A stretch of 15,319 nt of DNA from Mycobacterium sp. (GTDB lineage: Bacteria > Actinomycetota > Actinomycetes > Mycobacteriales > Mycobacteriaceae): positions 12,236-27,554 of the forward strand of contig JAHFVB010000005.1 of NCBI GenBank assembly GCA_023264755.1, given 5' to 3'. Every line of letters starts with the position of its first letter. Within the stretch, counting starts at the first letter, position 1. The notes under the pieces are model-generated. The model saw only the letters and a list, made by a program, of their open reading frames with translations. It did no database searches and was not told the DNA's origin. Shown piece by piece: positions 5,153-15,319 of the stretch. A program made the translations under genes and the position numbers.

Positions 5153-5228
5153 GGGGCTATGGCGCAGTTGGTAGCGCGTCTCGTTCGCATCGAGAAGGTC
5201 GGGGGTTCGAATCCCCTTAGCTCCACCA
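5153..5228 (+). tRNA. tRNA-Ala, anticodon CGC
   Basis: The 76-nt sequence folds as a full cloverleaf. The acceptor stem GGGGCTA pairs with TAGCTCC and contains the G3:U70 wobble that identifies alanine tRNAs. The anticodon stem TCTCG/CGAGA (5179-5183, 5191-5195) holds the loop TTCGCAT with anticodon CGC (5186-5188), reading GCG. The T arm is GGGGG-TTCGAAT-CCCCT. The discriminator is A (5225) and CCA is encoded (5226-5228). A strong terminator follows 50 nt downstream. Beyond it, gene content leaves the order known for M. tuberculosis, so this tRNA marks the edge of an accessory region. Confidence 0.96.
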
Positions 5229-5277
5229 GTGTGATGAGTCGGGACATGGGTTACCCCCGAGTCGCGTCATCGGTTAC

Positions 5278-5310
5278 AGAAAGACCCCGGCCATCGGCCG
5301 GGGTCTTTCT
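5278..5310 (+). terminator. Strong intrinsic terminator after tRNA-Ala
   Basis: The 15-nt arm AGAAAGACCCCGGCC pairs perfectly with GGCCGGGGTCTTTCT around a 3-nt loop ATC. The upper stem is almost all G-C, and the arm ends in TCTTTCT in either direction, so it may end transcription from both strands. Its position 50 nt after the tRNA fits a tRNA terminator. Confidence 0.9.
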
Positions 5311-5473
5311 GCTGGTTGGGCCAGTAGTCGGGGTTGGGGTCGACGGTGTGGTTGGCGATGAGTTGGTGGGTGGTCTTGCTCAGGACGGTCACGGTGGTGG
5401 TGGTGACGACGACGAGCGCTGGGGTGTGGGCGTGCTTTGAGCCAGCGTTTGAGGGTTTGGTGGCGACTGTCAC
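5309..5473 (-). pseudogene. Possible C-terminal remnant of an IS481-like transposase
   Basis: Read on the minus strand from about 5431, the frame gives HTPALVVVTTTTVTVL, then THQLIANHTVDPNPDYWPNQ. The pattern of a hydrophobic strand, a beta turn with a variable loop, and a closing D-P-x-x-x-Y segment resembles the tail of IS481-family transposases, which commonly end with a similar DPTRDYQP motif. No catalytic DDE part is present, the reading shifts frame upstream (the other frame gives HQTLKRWLKARPH), and the 3' end runs into the tRNA terminator. The gene would therefore be long dead. This is pattern recall without alignment and could be chance in a GC-rich frame. Confidence 0.35.
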
Positions 5474-5704
5474 CTATGACGTGACTCATCGAGCGTCGTT
5501 CCAGGTGTCGCGCGTGACGGGACCCACGTGTCACCCATGTCGTGAACTCGTACACCACTAGGCGTCTGGCCATTTTGTGAGTTGCTTGGAGCCATCCGGC
5601 ATCGGTCTGATGCCAGTGTTTCCGTCGATGTTTGCGTAGTACCCCTGGTTTACCATTGCACGAGCAATAATTAATTGGGGACCTGCGAGCGGAGAACGAA
5701 GCTG

Positions 5705-6223
5705 ATGGACGGCGCGGATCCGGCAATTGCAGGGGACGTGACGCCGCGATTACTCCCAGGGCACGCTGCGGCCTGCTTTGGCTGCGGCCACGAGAACGCG
5801 TCGGGGTTTCAATTAGAGGTGTGGCGCCGTGGTGACGAGATCTATACCGACGCTGCCTTTGACGATCGCCACATTGGAGGTCCTGGTCTAGCGCATGGCG
5901 GTGCTATCGCAGCGGTCTGTGACGAGCTGTTGGGCTTCACGGTGTGGCTGATCGGTGCGCCTGCGGTGACGCGTGCACTCACGATCGACTACCTCGCGCC
6001 CGTGCGACTGCATGAAAAATACCGCATCACAGCCAAGGTCGACCAAGAGAAGGGCCGTGCCATTCTTGTCTCCGCCAGGGGTATCGGTAGCAGTGAACAG
6101 GTGTCGTTCACAGCCAATGGCGTGTACGTACGCGTCCCGTTCGAGCACTTTGACGGGTTCGGGACGATGGTGACTCCAGTGGACGAGCTACAGGCAAAGC
6201 TTAGGAGCGAAAGTGGCCGGTAG
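5705..6223 (+). CDS. PaaI-like hotdog-fold acyl-CoA thioesterase
   Basis: The 172-residue protein is a single hotdog domain of the PaaI/THEM4-like group, which hydrolyses acyl- or aryl-CoA to the free acid and CoA. The family N-terminal block CFGCGHENASGFQLEVW (about 24-40) and the core helix GGPGLAHGGAIAAVCDELLG with the HGG turn and the acidic residues of the active-site helix are clear. The later TIDYLAPVRL strand is the typical continuation. The ATG at 5705 has GGAGAA about 8 nt upstream and is preferred to an in-frame TTG at 5675. It is the first intact gene after the tRNA boundary and converges on the SDR gene 150 bp away. A link to the CAR cluster (release of a free acid that CAR can use) is attractive but unproven, since no copy of the cluster operator was found before it. 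Confidence 0.85.
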   Translation: MDGADPAIAGDVTPRLLPGHAAACFGCGHENASGFQLEVWRRGDEIYTDAAFDDRHIGGPGLAHGGAIAAVCDELLGFTVWLIGAPAVTRALTIDYLAPVRLHEKYRITAKVDQEKGRAILVSARGIGSSEQVSFTANGVYVRVPFEHFDGFGTMVTPVDELQAKLRSESGR

Positions 6224-6373
6224 CGCGCAGCTCTCGCCGTACGCGCGGCAGAGTAGCCTCACGCCTTCTGAATTGTTAACGGGTGCAGGAAGATTCATGA
6301 CAAAGCAGCGGACGCGCGGCCGTTCTCGCACGAGACACGAGGATCAGTCCCCACTGTCGATCGTTGTGCCCAA

Positions 6374-7297
6374 TCAAGCACCCAATGCGTGTGCCAGCTC
6401 ATCGAAGATGTTCTGCGGAACCAGAAGCTGGTCGGTATTCATGATCTCGTCGAGGTGCGCTTCGACGTCCTCGGCGATGAGCCGCCGAATCGGCTCCGAC
6501 CATCCGCGGGTCACCCCAATCTGCAGCGCCGCCACCCGCCCTGCGAACGCGCTCAACACCGTATGAGTGATGGTGCACTGTTCGCTTGCCAGGTACGCGA
6601 CGACCGGCGCCACCTGATCCACCCTCAGGGTCTCCAGGAATTCACGCGCCTCCGGCGAGTCGGCTGCCGGGCCTAGAAGGGCTGAGGCCATCCGGGTATC
6701 GGCCATCGGCATGATCGAATTGGCGATGATCCCAAACTCTGCGCCCTCGATCGCGGCGACGTTCATCAGCCCCAACATCCCGGTCTTGGCCGTGGCGTAA
6801 CCGGTCAGGCCGGGTTGGCCAAAGACTCCGGCTGCCGATGACACGAAGACCAGCCGGCCGTAGCCCGCTGCCTTCATGACGCAAAATGCAGGCCGAACGA
6901 CGTGGAATGCCGCGAGAAGGTGATGGCGAAGCTGAGCTTCGAATCGTTCGGTGGACCAATCGTCGAGAGGGTCGGAATCGACGATGCCTGCATTGGCGAC
7001 GACGATGTCCAAGCGTCCAAACGCACTGTTAGCCAGATCAATTGCGGCCTGCCCGCCCTCCGGGGTACTGGCATCAGTGGTACACGCTTGGGCCCGCCCG
7101 CCGGATCTGACGATATCGGCGGCGACTTCGAGTGCCGGCGCGGTGTCGGATCCGGAGCCGTCGGGTGCGGCGCCGTTGTCGTGGACGACCACGGCAGCAC
7201 CCCGCCGGGCCAACTCTCGCGCGTAGGCAGCGCCAAGTCCACGGCCGCCGCCCGTCACGATTGCGACGCGGTCTGAGAATGAGATGTTCCCCGTCAC
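6374..7297 (-). CDS. SDR oxidoreductase, hydroxyacyl-CoA-dehydrogenase-like
   Basis: The 307-residue protein is a classical short-chain dehydrogenase. Its cofactor loop is TGGGRGLG (15-22), the structural NAG is at 102-104, and the catalytic set is S154, Y167 and K171 (YATAK). The N-terminal half, FSDRVAIVTGGGRGLG then AVVVHDNG and DGSGSD, closely follows the (3R)-hydroxyacyl-CoA dehydrogenase domain of peroxisomal multifunctional enzyme 2 and its bacterial relatives. An acyl-CoA or steroid-side-chain substrate with NAD(H) is therefore likely. The GTG at 7297 is chosen because it sits four bases after the stop of the 73-aa gene, giving translational coupling; the frame stays open upstream to about 7468 but reads low-complexity Ser/Gly there. 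The pair is driven by the operator-containing divergent promoter at 7582-7610. Confidence 0.9.
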   Translation of the reverse strand: MTGNISFSDRVAIVTGGGRGLGAAYARELARRGAAVVVHDNGAAPDGSGSDTAPALEVAADIVRSGGRAQACTTDASTPEGGQAAIDLANSAFGRLDIVVANAGIVDSDPLDDWSTERFEAQLRHHLLAAFHVVRPAFCVMKAAGYGRLVFVSSAAGVFGQPGLTGYATAKTGMLGLMNVAAIEGAEFGIIANSIMPMADTRMASALLGPAADSPEAREFLETLRVDQVAPVVAYLASEQCTITHTVLSAFAGRVAALQIGVTRGWSEPIRRLIAEDVEAHLDEIMNTDQLLVPQNIFDELAHALGA

Positions 7298-7301
7298 GGC
7301 G

Positions 7302-7523
7302 TCAGGCCTCCGTGGCTGCGGCCACGGGGTTGACCCCGAGTCGCCGGAGGGTTGCGACCCGAATGTCGAGCTCGCCCCCGTCATCGACGCGCCCGAGATC
7401 GCTTCGACGAAGCGCCGACTGGAGCTCGCGATTGTCGAGCCCAGCGACTTCGACGTGCGGGCGCCCAAGGACGCTTGCTCCTTCGGGCGAAACAGTCTGA
7501 TCGATCGCTATCCGTACGAACAT
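7302..7523 (-). CDS. Small protein of unknown function (73 aa)
   Basis: I do not recognise this protein. It begins MFVRIAIDQTVSPEG from an ATG at 7523 with a good GAGGAG site about 8 nt upstream, and its stop lies four bases before the GTG of the SDR, so it looks like the first gene of a coupled two-gene operon. The N-terminus could be a short beta strand; the middle (LDNRELQSALRRSDLGRVDDGGELDIRVATLRRLG) is charged and probably helical. There are no cysteines, so it is not a ferredoxin, and there is no membrane segment. Start, ribosome site, spacing and the operator-bearing promoter about 60 nt upstream favour a real gene over a chance frame. Confidence 0.6.
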   Translation of the reverse strand: MFVRIAIDQTVSPEGASVLGRPHVEVAGLDNRELQSALRRSDLGRVDDGGELDIRVATLRRLGVNPVAAATEA

Positions 7524-7581
7524 CGCTTCGCTCCTCGACGGTCCATGTCAGATCTCCGCGTTCGCGGACCTGGCGCGCCCT

Positions 7582-7610
7582 AGGTTATTAAGCTGCTAAA
7601 CAAAAAGCAA
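7582..7610 (-). promoter_or_regulatory. Promoter of the small gene-SDR operon, operator inside spacer
   Basis: On the minus strand TTGCTT (7610-7605) and TAACCT (7587-7582) stand 17 bp apart and fit a -35 and a TANNNT -10. The palindromic operator (7585-7603) fills the spacer. Transcription would start near 7575, about 50 nt before the ATG at 7523. The promoter is inferred from motif and spacing. Confidence 0.5.
7585..7603. promoter_or_regulatory. Cluster operator, copy 1
   Basis: TTATTAAGCTGCTAAACAA is one of three 19-bp copies of the form TTATTAAG-N3-CTWAACAA. The arms are imperfect mirror images; as half-sites they read TTATTAAG and TTGTTTAG. It covers the minus-strand promoter of the 73-aa gene and SDR, 86 bp (centre to centre) from copy 2. 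Confidence 0.8.
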
Positions 7611-7639
7611 TAGCGGACCGGGTAGGGCCGAGTGGCTCG

Positions 7640-7668
7640 TTGACACCTCCACCGACACCCGTTACCTT
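7640..7668 (+). promoter_or_regulatory. Promoter of the carboxylic acid reductase gene
   Basis: A perfect TTGACA (7640-7645), a 17-bp spacer and TACCTT (7663-7668, TANNNT) form a near-ideal housekeeping promoter. The expected start, near 7675, lies inside operator copy 2. Confidence 0.75.
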
Positions 7669-7670
7669 CC

Positions 7671-7689
7671 TTATTAAGGTACTTAACAA
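7671..7689. promoter_or_regulatory. Cluster operator, copy 2
   Basis: TTATTAAGGTACTTAACAA is the most symmetrical of the three copies: TTAAG and CTTAA mirror perfectly around GTA, and the outer bases TTAT/ACAA extend the symmetry apart from one position. It begins three bases after the -10 box of the CAR promoter, so a bound repressor would block initiation. Confidence 0.85.
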
Positions 7690-7782
7690 GGGAGGATGAT
7701 CAGCGTCTGCTTAGGCCGAGACGCGCACCCAGTGCGGCGTGAACAACGCCGTTTCCGCACCTACCCGCTGTCGAGGTATGCA

Positions 7783-10700
7783 ATGCCCGATGAAGACTTC
7801 ATGGAACGGATGCTCCGCCGCGTCGTGGATTTGTTGACCACCGACACCGAGTTCGCTGCGACCATGCCGGATGCTGCGGTGAATGCCGCCCTCGATGTGC
7901 CGGGGTTACGCCTGCCACATCTTGTTCGGACGGTCTTGGAGGGTTATGCCGGGCGCCCGGCATTGGGGCAGCGGGCGGTGGAGTTGGTGACCGATGCGAC
8001 GGGGCGCACCACTGCGGATCTGTTGCCGCGATTCGAGACCATCACATACGGCGAACTAGGGGATCGGGTCACCGCGACGGCTGCCGCATTCGCCAGTGAA
8101 CGGCATGCGGCCGTGCGTCCGGGGGACCGGGTATGCATTCTGGGATTCGCGAGCATCGACTACACGACGATCGACATGTCCTTGGTTCAAATCGGCGCGG
8201 TGGCCGTCTCGCTGCCTACCAGCGCTCCTGTGGCACAGCTCCTCCCGATCGTCGGCGAGACCGAGCCGGTGCTCATTGCGTCAGCGATCGACTATCTTTC
8301 CGACGCCGTTGAACTCTCGTTGAACGGGCATGTGCCAGCAGGAATCGTCGTGTTCGACTACCGCGAGCACGTCGACGACGATCGTGAGGTCTTGCAGTCC
8401 GCCCGCGCCCGACTCGCCGAAGCGGGCTGCGCCATAGCCGTGCAGACCATGAGCGAGGCCCTCGAGCTTGGCCGCGCCCTACCGCCGATGTCTCCCTACA
8501 TCTCTGATGATCCCGACCCACTGACACTTCTCGTCTATACCTCGGGCAGCACCGGATCGCCCAAGGGGGCAATGCATACCGAGCACATCGTGGCCGCCTC
8601 CTGGCTCTCACCGACATTGAACGGTGAGCACAGCCCACTGGCGTTGATCTCGTTGATCTTCGCGCCGATGAGCCACGTAATGGGCCGTAGCTTGCTGTAT
8701 TCGGCGCTTGGTGCCGGAGGAATAGCCTATTTCGCCCCCAGGAGTGATCTGTCGACGCTGTTCGACGACCTTGCCCTGGTCCGACCGACGTTGTTGACGT
8801 TCGTCCCTCGCATCTGGGACCTCCTGTTCGAAGAGGTCAACAACGAGGTAGATCGTCGCGCAGTCGCAGGCGCCGATCGTGCGGCGATCGAAGCCGATGT
8901 GCTAGCGGAGTACAGGCAGAACGTGCTGGGCGGCCGCTACATCGGGGTCTCATCGGGCTCGGCGGCCATCTCCCCGGAGATGAAGGCATGGGCTGAGAAG
9001 CTGATCGACCAGCCGCTCTTGGAAGGCTATGGCGCGACGGAGACCGGTCCGGTGTTTGCCGACGGAACGGTGCGTCGACCGCCCGTGATCGACTACAAGT
9101 TGGTCGACGTACCCGAGCTCGGCTACTTCCTCACAGATCGGCCTCACCCAAGGGGCGAGCTATTGGTGAAGACCGCTGGGCTGTTCCCCGGCTACTACAA
9201 GCGCCCTGAACTGACCGCTGAAGTGTTCGATGCCGACGGCTTCTACCGCACCGGCGACATCGTTGCCGAGATTGGGACTGATCAGCTGCAGTACCTGGAT
9301 CGTCGCAACACGGTCCTCAAGCTGTCCCAAGGCGAATTCGTTGCCGTCTCCAAGCTCGAGGCGGCGTTCAGCAATAGCACACTGGTACAACAGGTGTACA
9401 TCTACGGCAACAGCGCACGGTCCTACCTGCTCGCGGTGATCGTGCCGACAGAAAGCGCATTGTCCGATGCAGGCGGCGATGCCGTATCGCTCAAGGCGGC
9501 AATCAGCGAGTCGCTGCGGAACGTGGCGCGCGCCGCGGGCCTGCAGTCGTATGAGATTCCGCGCGACTTCATCCTCGAGACAACACCATTCACTCTGGAG
9601 AACGGATTCCTCACCGGTATCCGCAAGCTCTCCCGACCGAAACTGAAGGAGCACTACGGTCCCCAGTTGGAACAGCTTTACGTCGAGCTCGCCGAGGGGC
9701 AGAGCAGTGAGCTGCGGGCACTTCGTCAGGGTGGCGCCGACCGACCAGTGATCGAGACCGTCGGTCGCGCCGCCAGCGCTCTGCTCGGTACCGCGGCCGC
9801 TGACCCGGCGCCCGGCGCCCCGTTCACCGATCTGGGCGGAGATTCCCTCTCTGCGCTGACCTTTGCCAAGCTGCTCCACGACATATTCGGCATCGAGGTA
9901 CCGGTCGGTTTCATCGTCAGCCCGGCCACCGACCTGCGTGCCATCGCCGACTACATCGAAGCGGAGCGAGCGACGGGCTCGACGCGACCGACATTCGCCA
10001 CCGTGCACGGTAGCGACGCCACCGAGGTACACGCTCATGACCTCACGCTGGAGAAGTTCATCGACGCACCGACGTTGGCGGCCGCGCCGGCACTGCCTGG
10101 ACCGAGCGACATGGTCCGCACGGTGTTGTTGACCGGTGCCAGCGGCTTTCTGGGCCGCTACCTCGCCCTGGAATGGCTCGAGCGAATGCGCCTCGTCGGC
10201 GGCACGGTGATCTGCCTCGTGCGTGGAAAGGACGATGCTTCGGCCCGCGCGAGGCTGGATGCCGTCTTCGACAGCGGTGATCCAGAATTGCTCCATCACT
10301 ATCGCGAACTGGCGGCCGACCACCTGCAGGTCATCGCAGGGGACAAGTCCGAGGCCAATCTCGGTCTCGACGAAGCGACCTGGAAGGTGTTGGCCGATAC
10401 CGTCGATCTCATCGTTGACCCAGCTGCGTTGGTCAACCACCTGCTGCCGTACCGCGAGTTGTTCGGACCCAATGTCGTCGGCACGGCCGAACTGATCCGA
10501 ATTGGCATCACCACCAAGCTCAAACAGTTTGCCTACGTCTCGACGATCGGTGTCATCGTGGGACTCGACCCCGCGGAGTTCACCGAAGACGCCGACATGC
10601 GGTCCATGAGTCCATCCAGAAATGTCGACGACAATTACACCAACGGCTACGGCAACAGCAAGTGGGCAGGCGAGGTGCTACTGCGCGAGGCACATGATCT

Positions 10701-11307
10701 GTGCGGATTGCCCGTGTCGGTATTCCGATGCGGAATGATACTGGCAGACCACAGATATCATGGTCAGATCAACGTGCCCGACACGTTCACTCGGCTGATG
10801 CTGAGCTTGATCGCAACGGGAATCGCTCCCGGTTCGTTCTATCAACTGGACGGCAACGGAGAGCGTCAGCGCGCCCACTACGACGGTCTTCCCGTCGACT
10901 TCGTCGCCGAAGCCATCTCTACGCTGGGCGAGCAGCAGGTCGTTGGGTTTCAGACCTACCACGTGATGAATCCGTACGACGATGGCATCGGACTCGACGA
11001 ATACGTCGACTGGTTGGCCGAGGCCGGCTATCCGCTCCACCGAGTCGCTGATTACGACGAGTGGTTCCAGCGATTTGAAACCTCCATCCGCGGACTACCA
11101 GACCGCCAGCGCCAGGCGTCAGTACTGCCGTTGATGAACACGTACCGACATCCCAGCCCGCCGTCGAACGGCGCGATCGCACCCACCGACCGCTTCCAGG
11201 AAGCGGTTCGGATCGCAAGGATTGGCCCCGACAAGGACATTCCGCACATCACGGCACCGATCATCGTCAAGTACGCCACGTCCCTGACACTGCTTGGTCT
11301 GTTGTGA
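7783..11307 (+). CDS. car: Carboxylic acid reductase (CAR), ATP/NADPH-dependent
   Basis: CAR activates a carboxylic acid as acyl-AMP, loads it on a phosphopantetheine arm and reduces it with NADPH to the aldehyde. All parts are present. The adenylation domain has TSGSTGSPKG (about 252-261), YGATETGP (about 415) and YRTGD (about 488). The carrier has LGGDSLS with the phosphopantetheine Ser near 688. The reductase domain has TGASGFLG (about 784-791) and a YGNSK catalytic pair (Y956, K960). The ATG at 7783 gives 1174 aa, the usual CAR length, with GAGG 6 nt upstream. An in-frame ATG at 7696 would add 29 unrelated residues and its GGGAGG touches the start codon, but cannot be ruled out. A phosphopantetheinyl transferase encoded elsewhere is needed. 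Substrate range cannot be read; known CARs take aromatic and aliphatic acids. Confidence 0.95.
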   Translation: MPDEDFMERMLRRVVDLLTTDTEFAATMPDAAVNAALDVPGLRLPHLVRTVLEGYAGRPALGQRAVELVTDATGRTTADLLPRFETITYGELGDRVTATAAAFASERHAAVRPGDRVCILGFASIDYTTIDMSLVQIGAVAVSLPTSAPVAQLLPIVGETEPVLIASAIDYLSDAVELSLNGHVPAGIVVFDYREHVDDDREVLQSARARLAEAGCAIAVQTMSEALELGRALPPMSPYISDDPDPLTLLVYTSGSTGSPKGAMHTEHIVAASWLSPTLNGEHSPLALISLIFAPMSHVMGRSLLYSALGAGGIAYFAPRSDLSTLFDDLALVRPTLLTFVPRIWDLLFEEVNNEVDRRAVAGADRAAIEADVLAEYRQNVLGGRYIGVSSGSAAISPEMKAWAEKLIDQPLLEGYGATETGPVFADGTVRRPPVIDYKLVDVPELGYFLTDRPHPRGELLVKTAGLFPGYYKRPELTAEVFDADGFYRTGDIVAEIGTDQLQYLDRRNTVLKLSQGEFVAVSKLEAAFSNSTLVQQVYIYGNSARSYLLAVIVPTESALSDAGGDAVSLKAAISESLRNVARAAGLQSYEIPRDFILETTPFTLENGFLTGIRKLSRPKLKEHYGPQLEQLYVELAEGQSSELRALRQGGADRPVIETVGRAASALLGTAAADPAPGAPFTDLGGDSLSALTFAKLLHDIFGIEVPVGFIVSPATDLRAIADYIEAERATGSTRPTFATVHGSDATEVHAHDLTLEKFIDAPTLAAAPALPGPSDMVRTVLLTGASGFLGRYLALEWLERMRLVGGTVICLVRGKDDASARARLDAVFDSGDPELLHHYRELAADHLQVIAGDKSEANLGLDEATWKVLADTVDLIVDPAALVNHLLPYRELFGPNVVGTAELIRIGITTKLKQFAYVSTIGVIVGLDPAEFTEDADMRSMSPSRNVDDNYTNGYGNSKWAGEVLLREAHDLCGLPVSVFRCGMILADHRYHGQINVPDTFTRLMLSLIATGIAPGSFYQLDGNGERQRAHYDGLPVDFVAEAISTLGEQQVVGFQTYHVMNPYDDGIGLDEYVDWLAEAGYPLHRVADYDEWFQRFETSIRGLPDRQRQASVLPLMNTYRHPSPPSNGAIAPTDRFQEAVRIARIGPDKDIPHITAPIIVKYATSLTLLGLL

Positions 11308-11327
11308 CACTCGGGTTCGTTTCGTCG

Positions 11328-11357
11328 TTGACAGCGCAGCAATGGACCGGATAGCGT
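11328..11357 (+). promoter_or_regulatory. Promoter of the dehydrogenase-monooxygenase-SDR operon
   Basis: A perfect TTGACA (11328-11333), an 18-bp spacer and TAGCGT (11352-11357, TANNNT) predict a start near 11364, inside operator copy 3 and about 60 nt before the ATG at 11425. The layout copies that of the CAR promoter. Confidence 0.7.
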
Positions 11358-11359
11358 CG

Positions 11360-11378
11360 TTATTAAGTAACTAAACAA
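11360..11378. promoter_or_regulatory. Cluster operator, copy 3
   Basis: TTATTAAGTAACTAAACAA shares the left arm with copies 1 and 2 and the right arm CTAAACAA with copy 1; only the 3-bp centre differs. It begins two bases after the -10 box of the downstream operon promoter. Confidence 0.85.
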
Positions 11379-11424
11379 ATATCTGCGTTGATGGTGAATA
11401 GCGTCCTACTACAGGGGACTTGGA

Positions 11425-12513
11425 ATGGTTTACAAGGTCGTACAGTGGGCCACCGGGAACGTCGGCGTGCAATCGCTCCGTGCCCTTCTCGCCGACCCGC
11501 GATTCGCCGTTGTCGGCGGGTACGTCTATGACCCCGGCAAGGCAGGCCGGGACCTCGGCGAACTGGCCGGCGCCGAACCGTTGGGTGTCACTGCGACCGA
11601 CAGTGCCGCCGACATCCGCTGCGTTGACGCCGACTGCGTCGTCTACAACGCTCTCGGGGACAGTGGTGACGCCGCCCAGTGCCTGGAAGACGTCTGCGGG
11701 TTGCTGGAGTCGGGCAAGAACGTGGTCTCCACGGCGATCAGCACGCACATCCATCCTGCGGCGATCAACCCCGAGGATCGCGAGCGCCTCGAGACGGCAT
11801 GCGCGACCGGCGACACGACGTTTTTGAGCACCGGCGTCAATCCCGGCTTCGCCTTCGACGCATTCCCCATCGCGCTGACGTCGGTGGCGCGGAGGATCGA
11901 CCGCTTACACGTGCTCGAACTCGTGGACATGTCCGACTACACCTCGAAGTCGATCGTCTCCGAGCTGATCGGCATGGGCATGAGCCCGGACACCATGGCG
12001 CCGATGGAGTATCTGACCGATATTCAATGGAGCCCGTATTTTCCGTGCGTGCAACTGCTGACTGACGCGCTCGGCGTGACATACGACGAGTTCGTCATCC
12101 GCCACACCAAGGCGGTGACCGACGTGCCGATCGACCTGCCGTGGGGACGTATCGACACAGGCGCCGTGGCGGTGCGCCGCATCGTCATCGAGGCGCGCAC
12201 CGCCGGGTCGACGACGGTGGAGTACGAGCTGATCTGGCGGGTATCCAACGACGCCGCGCCCGAATGGCCATCCGGCAAAGCGCATTACGCAGTCACCATC
12301 AGCGGCGACCCGACGCTTACCTGTCGATTGGACATCGAAAGCGACACCGGCCGTGGCACGTCGATCGCCACGGCGATGGCCGCGGTGAACGCCATCCCAG
12401 CGGTGTGCGCCGCATCGCCTGGCATCAAGACCCGCCTGGATCTCGGAAAATTCGGGGGCGGCTACTTTCCCGCGGCCACGCGTCGCCAACCAGAAACGAG
12501 TGGAGCACCATGA
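11425..12513 (+). CDS. Dihydrodipicolinate-reductase-like NAD(P)-dependent dehydrogenase (amine-dehydrogenase type)
   Basis: The 362-residue protein opens with a Rossmann strand and loop, VVQWATGNVG (5-14), and continues with VVGGYVYDPGKAGRDLG, the pattern of the N-terminal domain of dihydrodipicolinate reductase. It is far longer than true DapB (about 250 aa) and lacks its lysine-pathway neighbours. Proteins of this longer mycobacterial group are related to 2,4-diaminopentanoate dehydrogenase and to native amine dehydrogenases, which interconvert ketones or aldehydes and amines with NAD(P)H and ammonia; that reaction is a family-level suggestion. AGGGGA lies 6 nt before the ATG. The stop overlaps the next start (ATGA, 12510-12513). 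Expression should follow the operator-bearing promoter at 11328. Confidence 0.8.
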   Translation: MVYKVVQWATGNVGVQSLRALLADPRFAVVGGYVYDPGKAGRDLGELAGAEPLGVTATDSAADIRCVDADCVVYNALGDSGDAAQCLEDVCGLLESGKNVVSTAISTHIHPAAINPEDRERLETACATGDTTFLSTGVNPGFAFDAFPIALTSVARRIDRLHVLELVDMSDYTSKSIVSELIGMGMSPDTMAPMEYLTDIQWSPYFPCVQLLTDALGVTYDEFVIRHTKAVTDVPIDLPWGRIDTGAVAVRRIVIEARTAGSTTVEYELIWRVSNDAAPEWPSGKAHYAVTISGDPTLTCRLDIESDTGRGTSIATAMAAVNAIPAVCAASPGIKTRLDLGKFGGGYFPAATRRQPETSGAP

Positions 12514-13604
12514 AATTCGGGATCTTCTACGAGATGTTCGTATCGCCACACGAATTGGACGCCGAGGCGCACATCATCCGCCAGACGGTCGACCAAATCG
12601 TGCAGGCGGACAAGAGCGGCTTCGATCACGTCTGGATGACCGAGCATCACTTTCTGCGGGGCTTCTCACACATGTCGGCGCCCGAGGTGCTTTTCGGGGC
12701 GGCCGCGTATCAGACCCAAAACATCCGGTTCGGCTTCGGATTGGCGCTGACCCCGCCGTCCTACAACCACCCGGTCCGCGTCGCCGAGCGGGTGGCGATG
12801 CTGGACTGCCTGTCCAACGGCCGGGTAGACGTGGGCTCGGGACGCTCGACGACGCCGGCCGAACTCTACGGCTTCGGCATCGATCCGGAACAGTCTCGGG
12901 CCCAGTGGCGGGAGGGGCTCGACGCCGTCACCCGACTGCTGGCCGAGGAGAACGTCTCACTCGACGGCGAGTTCGTGAAAATGCCTGCGCGCACGGTGGT
13001 TCCGCGCGCGGTGCAGAAGCCGCACCCGCCGATGTGGGTGGGCGGCGTGGGCCCCGGAAACGCGGAGCGTGCCGCCAAGAAGGGACTGGGGATGCTCTTC
13101 TTCGCGCACAAGACCGATTACGACGGGTTGACCGAGGCCACGGAGGCGTATCACGCCAACATCGACAAGGCCGAGCCGATCTGCGGGATGGTCAACAGGC
13201 AGACGGCGGGCTTCGTCAACGGCTTGTGTAGCTACGACCGTGACGAGGTCCGTAAACTGGCTGCACACAACACCGTTCAGCACACTCTGCACGGCTTCGA
13301 CTGGATGTCCAACGGTTGGCCGGGCGACGAGCCGCCGCCGAGCTACGCGCACCTCGGTGGAGGAGACATCGCGATGCTCCGCGAGGCGGCGAAGGCGGAC
13401 CCGGAGGCCATCGAGGAGTTCATGATCAACGAAGGTTTCGTGATGGCGGGCAACCCCGACGACTGCGCCAAGGTCCTCGACGGATTCAAGGCCAGTGGCG
13501 TCGACGAGGTCATCATCCACATGCAGATGGGCGGGATGCCACATGACCGCATCATGGAGTCCATCGAGCTGATCGGCAAAGAGCTGATCCCGAGCTACCG
13601 ATGA
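12510..13604 (+). CDS. LLM-class (luciferase-like) flavin-dependent monooxygenase
   Basis: The 364-residue protein is a TIM-barrel flavin enzyme of the bacterial luciferase family, using reduced FMN (or F420 in some relatives) and usually O2. Like LuxA it has EHHF (45-48), where LuxA has the active-site His44/His45, and later HPVRVAERVAMLDCLSNGR (87-105), the second family signature, then the GSGRS phosphate-binding turn. PPMWVGGVGPGNAERAAKKG is the late phosphate-site segment. The ATG at 12510 is fixed by the 4-bp overlap with the previous stop; the frame is open back to 12141, but that part is antisense-like Arg-rich noise. Its own stop overlaps the SDR start, so three proteins are made from one coupled message. 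An aldehyde from CAR is a plausible but untested substrate. Confidence 0.9.
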   Translation: MKFGIFYEMFVSPHELDAEAHIIRQTVDQIVQADKSGFDHVWMTEHHFLRGFSHMSAPEVLFGAAAYQTQNIRFGFGLALTPPSYNHPVRVAERVAMLDCLSNGRVDVGSGRSTTPAELYGFGIDPEQSRAQWREGLDAVTRLLAEENVSLDGEFVKMPARTVVPRAVQKPHPPMWVGGVGPGNAERAAKKGLGMLFFAHKTDYDGLTEATEAYHANIDKAEPICGMVNRQTAGFVNGLCSYDRDEVRKLAAHNTVQHTLHGFDWMSNGWPGDEPPPSYAHLGGGDIAMLREAAKADPEAIEEFMINEGFVMAGNPDDCAKVLDGFKASGVDEVIIHMQMGGMPHDRIMESIELIGKELIPSYR

Positions 13605-14404
13605 CCGGCGTCGCCGTCGTCACCGGTGGTGCCAGCGGAATTGGCCTTGCCTTCGCCCGCGCGTACGCCGCGAGAGGCGTGCGCGTGGTGATCGCCGACA
13701 TCGACGAATCTGCGATGGAGCGAGCTCGCGCTCAGCTCTGGGAGCAGGGCGCCAAGGTCGAGTGCGTGCGGGTCGACCTTCAAGATGCAGGATCGGTCGC
13801 CGAGCTCGGCGAGGTCGCCGCAGGGTTTGGAACGCTCGGCGCAGTCTGCCTGAACGCCGGAGTCACGTCGGCGGGAACGGCAGTGTGGGAAACAGCTGAC
13901 GCCACTTACAATTTCGTAGTGGGAGTGAATCTACGAGGTCTGTTCCACGGCATCAAGGCATTTGTTCCGAGGCTCGTGGAGCAGGGGAGTGCCGCCGACC
14001 TAGTGATCACCGCGTCGATGGCAGGAATGGTGGCGTCGCCCTACAGCGGTGTGTATGCCGCTAGCAAGGCGGGGGCGATAGCGCTGGCGAAGGCGTTGCG
14101 TGCCGAACTTGCGATGGTGGCGCCGTCGGTCCGGGTGGTACTGCTGAACCCGGGAATGGTGAAGACCAATCTCATCCGGACCTCTGCTGCGCAACTGCTC
14201 ATCGACGGGTCGATATCCGACGATCTCGTGGGCGGAATGCACGACGTGCTCAATCAATCGGGAGTGGAACCGGACGTGGCCGTGGCGTGGGCCTTACACG
14301 CATTGGAGGAGAGGACGTTCTGGGCGTTGCCCGCAGCGGGCGATCCCTTTGTGGCGATGCTGGATGCCGAACTCACCGAACTGCGCAACGTGAGTGCCGG
14401 GTGA
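13601..14404 (+). CDS. SDR-family oxidoreductase
   Basis: The 267-residue classical short-chain dehydrogenase has TGGASGIG (8-15), an Asp after the second strand (IADIDE) that favours NAD(H) over NADP(H), NAG at 85-87, and the catalytic set N110, S139, Y152 and K156 (YAASK). It would oxidise an alcohol or reduce a carbonyl; in this operon an aldehyde or alcohol linked to the CAR product is a reasonable candidate. The ATG overlaps the monooxygenase stop by four bases (13601-13604), making it the third coupled gene. It ends four bases from the convergent TetR gene, with no terminator between them. Confidence 0.92.
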   Translation: MTGVAVVTGGASGIGLAFARAYAARGVRVVIADIDESAMERARAQLWEQGAKVECVRVDLQDAGSVAELGEVAAGFGTLGAVCLNAGVTSAGTAVWETADATYNFVVGVNLRGLFHGIKAFVPRLVEQGSAADLVITASMAGMVASPYSGVYAASKAGAIALAKALRAELAMVAPSVRVVLLNPGMVKTNLIRTSAAQLLIDGSISDDLVGGMHDVLNQSGVEPDVAVAWALHALEERTFWALPAAGDPFVAMLDAELTELRNVSAG

Positions 14405-14408
14405 CGTG

Positions 14409-15101
14409 TCAGCGACTAGGCCGCCGAGTCTTCGCCTTCGCCTTCGCCTTGGTCTTGGTCTTCGACGATCGCTCGCGCTGACTGGCATCGAGGTGGTCAC
14501 CGATGAGCGCGGCCATCGCCTTTTGCTCGGACATCGTGGGAAGCGGATCGCTCATGACCATCTGCGCGACCATCATGCCCACCGGGCTGGACCACAGCAG
14601 GTTGGCGATCGCCGCCGAGTGGTGTGTGCTGCCGCTAAGAACCTCACCGATTCGGCCGATGGCACTGAGGATTCCGGCCAGCTGGTCGGCGGTCAGCGTT
14701 CCCTTCATGGCACGGGTGGCGATGAGGATCTCCAGGGCCGTCATGGACGTGGGGCTGAAGAACACATCCCAGGCAGCCGCAGTCAGCGTATCGGCTTGCT
14801 CCTTGGGATCGCTCACTTGGGCAGCAGCGTCGGCGATCTGTTCCAGCGACGCGGTCAGGGTGGCGTTGGCATGCTCAATGACGGCGGTGAGCAGTCCTTC
14901 GCGATCACCGAAGTAGTACTGGATGACTCCCCAGCTCACACCAGCACGGTCGATGATGTGTCGGGTGCTTGCCGCCGCGAAGCCCTCTTCCCGGATGCAG
15001 CGGATCGTCTCGTCGATCACCAGCGCCCGTGTTCGTTCCCCCCGTTCCTGGGCGCGCGCGTTCTGGTGCCGTACCGGGCGGGATCCAGCTTTGGCCGTCA
15101 T
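14409..15101 (-). CDS. TetR-family transcriptional regulator with Lys-rich tail
   Basis: The 230-residue protein has a TetR N-terminal DNA-binding domain: helix RTRALVIDETIRCIREEGF, then the helix-turn-helix STRHIIDRAGVSWGVIQYYFGD (about 45-66), the family signature. The remaining all-helical part is the ligand-binding and dimer domain, with no recognisable ligand. The C-terminus is an unusual Lys/Ala/Thr tail (KTKTKAKAKAKTRR, about 214-227). The ATG at 15101 lacks a clear ribosome site; the frame before it is closed. As the only regulator in the cluster it is the leading candidate for the protein that binds the three operators, although no copy of the operator was found in its own upstream region, so self-regulation through that motif is not seen. 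Confidence 0.9.
   Translation of the reverse strand: MTAKAGSRPVRHQNARAQERGERTRALVIDETIRCIREEGFAAASTRHIIDRAGVSWGVIQYYFGDREGLLTAVIEHANATLTASLEQIADAAAQVSDPKEQADTLTAAAWDVFFSPTSMTALEILIATRAMKGTLTADQLAGILSAIGRIGEVLSGSTHHSAAIANLLWSSPVGMMVAQMVMSDPLPTMSEQKAMAALIGDHLDASQRERSSKTKTKAKAKAKTRRPSR
14429..14463. repeat. CTTCGC/CTTGGT hexamer repeat coding the TetR Lys-rich tail
   Basis: Near-identical hexamers (TTCGCC three times, then TTGGTC-type units) lie at the 3' end of the regulator gene and encode the alternating Lys-Ala and Lys-Thr tail. Such a tract can vary in length by slippage, and a change of whole units would keep the frame. Confidence 0.6.
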
Positions 15102-15297
15102 GGTTACTACATCACCACACCTGGTGCCAGAGCTGCCAGCGTGACGGCGGCGGAGTCGCGCATGAACCGTGGCCGTGTCACGCCGTCGGTCGCCATGGGC
15201 CCGCTTAGCATGAGTTCACGGCGCGAGTAGTCAGCCCGTGCGACACGTCGGCCGGCAGGCTGGTGGGCCAACGCGACCAGGAATGAGGAGGGATGCC
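15102..15297. other. Divergent intergenic region between TetR and the next gene
   Basis: This 196-bp stretch should hold the promoters of the regulator (minus) and the gene starting at 15298 (plus). A minus-strand frame crosses it but ends just before the TetR start and looks like chance. I see no copy of the 19-bp operator and no clear TTGACA-type promoter. Confidence 0.4.
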
Positions 15298-15319
15298 ATG
15301 GCTGCTCCGGCATCTAAAC
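15298..15319 (+). CDS. Start of an unidentified gene (cut by window end)
   Basis: An ATG at 15298 follows GAGGAG (15285-15290) at a 7-nt spacing and begins MAAPASK before the window ends. Another ATG at 15293 lies too close to the ribosome site. Seven residues are too few to assign a function. Confidence 0.55.

Follow-up and report, generated by a model that had tools for sequence, protein, structure and literature searches.

A three-copy palindrome in a mycobacterial carboxylic acid reductase cluster and its predicted MarR-family regulator

The window analysed here, a stretch of 15,319 nucleotides from a Mycobacterium sp. assembly, carries a carboxylic acid reductase (CAR) gene in a cluster of accessory genes, and a 19-bp palindrome recurs in the promoter regions of this cluster. 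The locus raises the question of which protein reads the palindrome and which genes it joins.

The palindrome and the genes around it

A pattern search of the window gave exact matches to the palindrome TTATTAAG-N3-CTWAACAA at 7585-7603, 7671-7689 and 11360-11378, and no fourth place was found in the window even when up to three mismatches were allowed. In shuffled windows the average was 0.01 matches. Judged from its sequence, the palindrome looks like an operator. The features of the window are the following; no strand is assigned to the candidate operators.

5153-5228: tRNA-Ala (CGC) gene, before the cluster
5675-6223: thioesterase-like protein, part of the cluster
6374-7297, minus strand: short-chain dehydrogenase (SDR), start GTG 7297 picked by eye
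7302-7523, minus strand: 73-codon ORF without Pfam match, just upstream of the SDR
7585-7603: candidate operator copy 1, TTATTAAG-CTG-CTAAACAA, upstream of the small ORF and SDR that run leftward
7640-7668, plus strand: predicted CAR promoter, TTGACA-N17-TACCTT
7671-7689: candidate operator copy 2, TTATTAAG-GTA-CTTAACAA, 2 bp past the predicted -10 of the CAR promoter
7696-11307, plus strand: CAR, matching NF041592 from residue 41 onwards; ATG 7783 is a possible true start
11328-11357, plus strand: predicted promoter of the three-gene operon, TTGACA-N18-TAGCGT
11360-11378: candidate operator copy 3, TTATTAAG-TAA-CTAAACAA, 2 bp past the -10 predicted for the promoter of the three-gene operon
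11425-12513, plus strand: DapB/2,4-diaminopentanoate-dehydrogenase-like oxidoreductase, first gene of the three-gene operon
12525-13604, plus strand: luciferase-like monooxygenase, second gene of the operon
13601-14404, plus strand: short-chain dehydrogenase, third gene of the operon
14409-15101, minus strand: TetR regulator, the earlier candidate, judged not to read this operator
15298-15319, plus strand: start of the proposed MarR gene, which diverges from TetR; the contig ends after seven codons (MAAPASK)

The original prediction had assigned one copy to each of three promoter regions, joining an SDR pair, CAR and the three-gene operon. The copies do lie in promoter regions of the CAR cluster, but copies 1 and 2 lie 86 bp from each other in the same intergenic region, and the three sites thus fall into two such regions. 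The supposed SDR pair is in fact the 73-codon ORF plus a single SDR.

The GC content was 67-71% before the tRNA-Ala gene and 61-65% after it (5229-15319). For the DapB-like gene, the best match in 147 other sampled genomes of the genus was 44%, without genus-wide conservation of the operon; a scan of genome contigs gave 34% at best and plasmids 35%, and no match was found in viral contigs. Because of the tRNA-Ala border, the drop in GC content and the lack of a close genus homologue of the DapB-like gene, the cluster looks like an acquired island, with the tRNA-Ala border as a possible insertion point.

The whole assembly of this strain (4.75 Mb, 70% complete) was scanned with the symmetric form TTRTTWAG-N3-CTWAAYAA. 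The three window copies were the only exact matches, no place had one mismatch and a single place had two, in agreement with the earlier claim of three copies and no others, and with a motif that is not scattered. The 13-bp core TTWAG-N3-CTWAA also occurred only at the three places of the window, compared with four places for a backwards control pattern. Allowing up to one mismatch, the 19-mer was present in 2 of 148 genomes of the genus, namely this strain and G074 (one place, in a genome that gave no MarR match in the genus search), versus 15 of 148 for the backwards control. With up to three mismatches, genomes G290, G591 and G708 had 3, 2 and 3 places for the motif and 35, 27 and 26 for the backwards controls. 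The motif is thus rare relative to the control across the genus, and therefore marks a single cluster, without genome-wide enrichment, rather than a genus-wide regulon.

A MarR-family protein as the predicted reader of the palindrome

Past the TetR gene, a purine-rich ribosome-binding stretch is followed by an ORF that starts at 15298 and reads MAAPASK up to the contig end. The MarR protein P0249 from an unclassified Mycobacterium has the N-terminus MATPASKPG, and its contig is equal in size to that of a 77% homologue of TetR. The reader of the operator is most probably a MarR-family repressor encoded from 15298, divergent from TetR. Only seven codons of the predicted MarR gene lie in the window, which kept it out of view of the original prediction, and the remainder was absent from the 70%-complete assembly. 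No site was found in the TetR/MarR intergenic region of the window (best matrix score -14.9), and therefore MarR would not autoregulate through it there. The site, its position at predicted promoters for copies 2 and 3 and the association with MarR genes elsewhere can be read from the sequences themselves.

At the cut-offs used, the MarR search found homologues in 2 of 396 genus genomes (G042 and G386) and in 6 of 401 family genomes (G398, G468, G591, G648, G708 and G746). When all eight MarR loci were read, the exact core was present in six, beside MarR or in a cluster promoter, and the core with up to one mismatch in seven; the eighth (G468) had a doubtful diverged form. Since G591/G708 and G648/G746 are same-genus pairs, the independent cases number six, not eight. 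No exact core appeared in 200 dinucleotide shuffles of each of the eight loci, nor in 54 further loci (334 kb in 49 loci once nested ones are set aside). A matrix built from seven foreign sites ranked the three window sites first, with 30.3, 27.8 and 27.8 bits, and the next place scored 1.2. With leave-group-out matrices, the listed site was ranked at the top in seven of seven loci.

The position of the site differed among these genomes. The CAR of G042 is 71% identical to that of the window and has a MarR gene directly downstream; its site, with one core mismatch, lies between promoter and CAR start. The order in G386 is MarR, site, and then a protein 66% identical to the product of the gene divergent from the operon of the Gordonia-like genomes described below. 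In both G648 and G746 an mce-like (MlaE/MlaD) operon diverges from MarR, with the site between the two; the mce-like label rests on MlaE and MlaD matches beside the MarR genes of L096 and L097. In G398 the site is upstream of MarR. These last three positions are as would be expected for MarR autoregulation. The MarR of G468 is the most distant (32%) and no core was found in its locus; the best matrix match there, TAGTTAACTTCATTAATCA, has two core mismatches and lies 46 bp before MarR, but its score of 13.9 hardly exceeds an off-target score of 12.8 in the G386 locus, which makes this diverged site doubtful.

All five of these MarR homologues given to Pfam matched MarR_2. For the presumed recognition helix, most rows give G/AVTRSATSQ and P0245 gives GVTPSATSQ, with the variants GVTRSAMSQ in G648/G746 and GVSRSAVSQ in G398; in G468, where the site has diverged, it reads GVSRPAVSQ. 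An ORF of another kind, encoding a green fluorescent protein (MVSKGEELFTGV...), was seen in G398 (L098 14926-15645), so that an engineered strain seems to represent a species among the genomes used.

Contig sizes were compared among the matches listed (120 DapB-like, 119 TetR and 52 MarR), the same contig being judged from equal size. Among these, at least six sizes (9,168 to 56,972) were common to DapB-like and MarR homologues and at least ten to TetR and MarR homologues, although the equal sizes 2,881, 4,041 and 4,925 of the TetR/MarR set may be due to chance. No MarR was found on an equal-size contig for 114 of the 120 DapB-like matches listed, including P0002 (104,324 bases) and P0014 (118,218). 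No MarR homologue was found on plasmids.

The operon itself was present in 2 of 400 other family genomes (G591 and G708), which belong to a single Gordonia-like genus (2 of the 59 genomes there); the label Gordonia-like was inferred from P0021 and P0242 (Gordonia), as the label mycobacterial was from named relatives. Identities to the window were 58-59% for the DapB-like protein, 72% for the monooxygenase and 57-58% for the SDR. No CAR match was seen in these loci, where the operon carries a LuxC-family acyl-CoA reductase in place of CAR. The first gene of this operon (L054:10393-11727) encodes a 444-residue protein that appears adenylation-like ('LuxE-like') by eye only, with an SGTSGK stretch, and that had no Pfam, NCBIfam or PDB match; L054:12095-13009 is a membrane gene by eye. 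In each of the two genomes the core matched exactly once, in the region of the operon's promoter; the arms there are unchanged and the 3-bp centre is another one. The MarR gene adjoins the operon. Matches to TetR in G591 and G708 were weak (E 1e-8 or worse) and located elsewhere. The proposal that an operator-like dyad unites CAR, SDR and the three-gene operon thus gained support from its conservation at homologous clusters, the site being kept at the same operon in another genus.

Two further observations were made in these loci. The LuxC gene (L054 7852-9509) is split by a frameshift in G591 and whole in G708, and a second, weaker palindrome-like element, TTGTTAAGAACTATACAAA, lies upstream of the gene that diverges from the operon, identical at L054 11994 and L055 11884. 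In G290, an apparent decayed relative of the cluster was found, with a MarR fragment divergent from a TetR (51%) and an SDR fragment (73%) at L047 11712-13104, and, at L047 1185-2090, a 65% match to the gene that diverges from the operon of the Gordonia-like genomes; this locus contained no operator.

Promoter position, predicted mode of control and alternative readings

Copies 2 and 3 start 2 bp past matches to the pattern TTGACA-spacer-TANNNT, which occurs just twice in the window and 0.03 times on average in shuffles. At seven of ten sites the palindrome overlaps the predicted promoter, starting 2-3 bp past TTGACA/C-N17/18-TANNNT as read by eye (the window matches came from the pattern search). 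This layout was found at window copies 2 and 3, in G591, G708 and G042, and on the mce sides of G648, with TTGACC instead of TTGACA, and G746. It was missing at window copy 1, which has no clear promoter hexamers, and in G386 and G398. A generic promoter scan, which demands a closer fit to TATAAT, gave no match. The sites overlie the expected start point, and a dimer bound there would hide +1; repression is therefore favoured and likely, while an activator could likewise act from a site that overlaps a promoter.

In the predicted mechanism, MarR would act as a homodimer, with one winged-helix dimer on each palindrome. By hiding the transcription starts of CAR and the three-gene operon, the dimer would block RNA polymerase. 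From copy 1 it would repress the leftward SDR genes likewise, or would assist copy 2 from 86 bp away. More speculatively, a substrate-linked acid, or its acyl-CoA or acyl-ACP form, might alter the hold of the dimer on DNA, and the reduction of acid to aldehyde by CAR and the accessory oxidoreductases might then be provided on demand only. The predicted targets are CAR here, LuxC-type genes in the Gordonia-like genomes and mce-like operons elsewhere.

Among other readings, one in which both regulators act, MarR on the palindrome and TetR on another element or on the divergent TetR/MarR promoters jointly with MarR, is possible but rather unlikely; it is compatible with the MarR explanation, and the chances of the two overlap. 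TetR and MarR homologues share ten equal-size contigs among the matches listed, and the TetR of G290 is divergent from a MarR fragment. However, the site persists without TetR in seven loci.

The first proposal, repression of the cluster by TetR (14409-15101) bound to the palindrome, is improbable, and TetR was rejected as the reader on co-occurrence. It does lie in the window, adjoining the operon, and TetR and DapB-like homologues on equal-size contigs (17,939 and 12,434) indicate that it travels with the cluster in close relatives, although two further equal sizes, 1,309 and 2,195, are short and may be due to chance. Against this, no TetR homologue (E 1e-3) was present in any of the eight MarR loci, and TetR homologues (E 1e-15) occurred in 239 of 396 genus genomes whereas the motif with up to one mismatch was limited to 2 of 148. 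The core was absent from all 19 of the TetR-homologue loci covered, which were the best among many matches; in five of them (L047-L051), read with 19-20 kb, matrix scores did not exceed 3.3. Nor was there a site before the TetR gene itself. At its C-terminus (window 14409-14480) TetR has a lysine-rich repeat, KTKTKAKAKAKAKT; in the near-identical homologue P0121 this repeat is of another length.

A near-perfect inverted repeat close to predicted start points could also be an RNA hairpin near the transcript 5' end, or a relic repeat, and not a protein site, but this is very improbable: the palindrome would span the predicted start and leave half of itself untranscribed, its arms are constant across sites while the 3-bp centre varies freely, and the exact or one-mismatch core accompanies MarR genes or clusters in four genera (g1, g4, g9 and g23).

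Known systems and meaning of the MarR-operator pair

FabT is a MarR-family repressor of fatty acid synthesis in streptococci and enterococci, and was the nearest solved relative by both sequence and fold. In a sequence search with the MarR profile, the top PDB match was 6jbx (FabT with DNA; E 4e-11); this structure was also the best fold match (E 2.6e-8) of a model of the MarR homologue P0257 (mean pLDDT 84.6). Among NCBIfam models FabT ranked first for the G591 MarR, but with 33 bits against a cut-off of 200 it stayed below the curated threshold, and the arm sequence of the operator differs as well. The FabT operator ANTTTGACTGTNAAATT, as given in PMC8406281, has by our reading the same 5 + 3 + 5 core as TTWAG-N3-CTWAA. 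Whereas FabT controls fatty acid synthesis, the predicted targets here are acid reduction and lipid import. FabT is described in PMC9083066 as a dimer whose DNA binding is strengthened by acyl-ACP. Because FabT responds to acyl-ACP, our guess for the ligand of MarR is an acyl or acid compound, whose effect could run in either direction.

According to PMC5487221, MarR dimers bind palindromic DNA, and repressors make up most of the characterized members of the family. The HucR-type arrangement described there, a single palindrome between the regulator and the regulated gene, is also the layout of G648 and G746. In contrast, related loci have the site at promoters away from marR, as do the three copies of the window, where none lies before the predicted marR itself. 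The mycobacterial TetR-family regulators KstR and KstR2 are similar in having palindromic sites that overlap promoters of lipid catabolism, but the regulator family is TetR rather than MarR, and the KstR core given in PMC1995591, TnnAACnnGTTnnA, is missing from these sites. The sites were therefore excluded as KstR operators; AAC-NN-GTT occurred in none of the three, as the original prediction of a motif distinct from that of KstR had held.

The pair described here is, as far as the sequences indicate, a new regulator-operator pair of an already known kind, that of MarR repressor and operator. We tentatively suggest that MarR and the TTAAG-N3-CTTAA operator may form a portable control module of the Mycobacteriaceae, found beside an mce-like import operon in one genus and attached to non-homologous acid-to-aldehyde enzymes in others (LuxC with an adenylation-like partner in the Gordonia type, CAR in mycobacteria), the enzymes being swapped and the switch kept. 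If so, one would expect a lipid acid, or the CoA ester of one, as the ligand of MarR. The point that deserves testing is the tie of a single switch both to lipid import and to two unrelated enzymes that reduce acids; from the mce link, one type of switch may govern import as well as reduction of related lipids. Carboxylic acid reductases serve in biocatalysis; the pair predicts partner genes of CAR and, via the ligand of MarR, gives a clue to its physiological acid. It could also be used as a sensor.

Judged from the listings of a literature search, no paper was found on MarR control of a CAR gene. The exact form of the motif gave no match and looser strings none relevant by title among those listed; by title, none of those listed on MarR with an mce operon concerned this arrangement. 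A related palindrome, TCGTTCAGTATCTGAACAA, was seen at L089 6441-6459, at the start of another ORF (5912-6439, minus strand) that is MarR-like by eye and perhaps encodes a sister regulator, the arm differing by one base.
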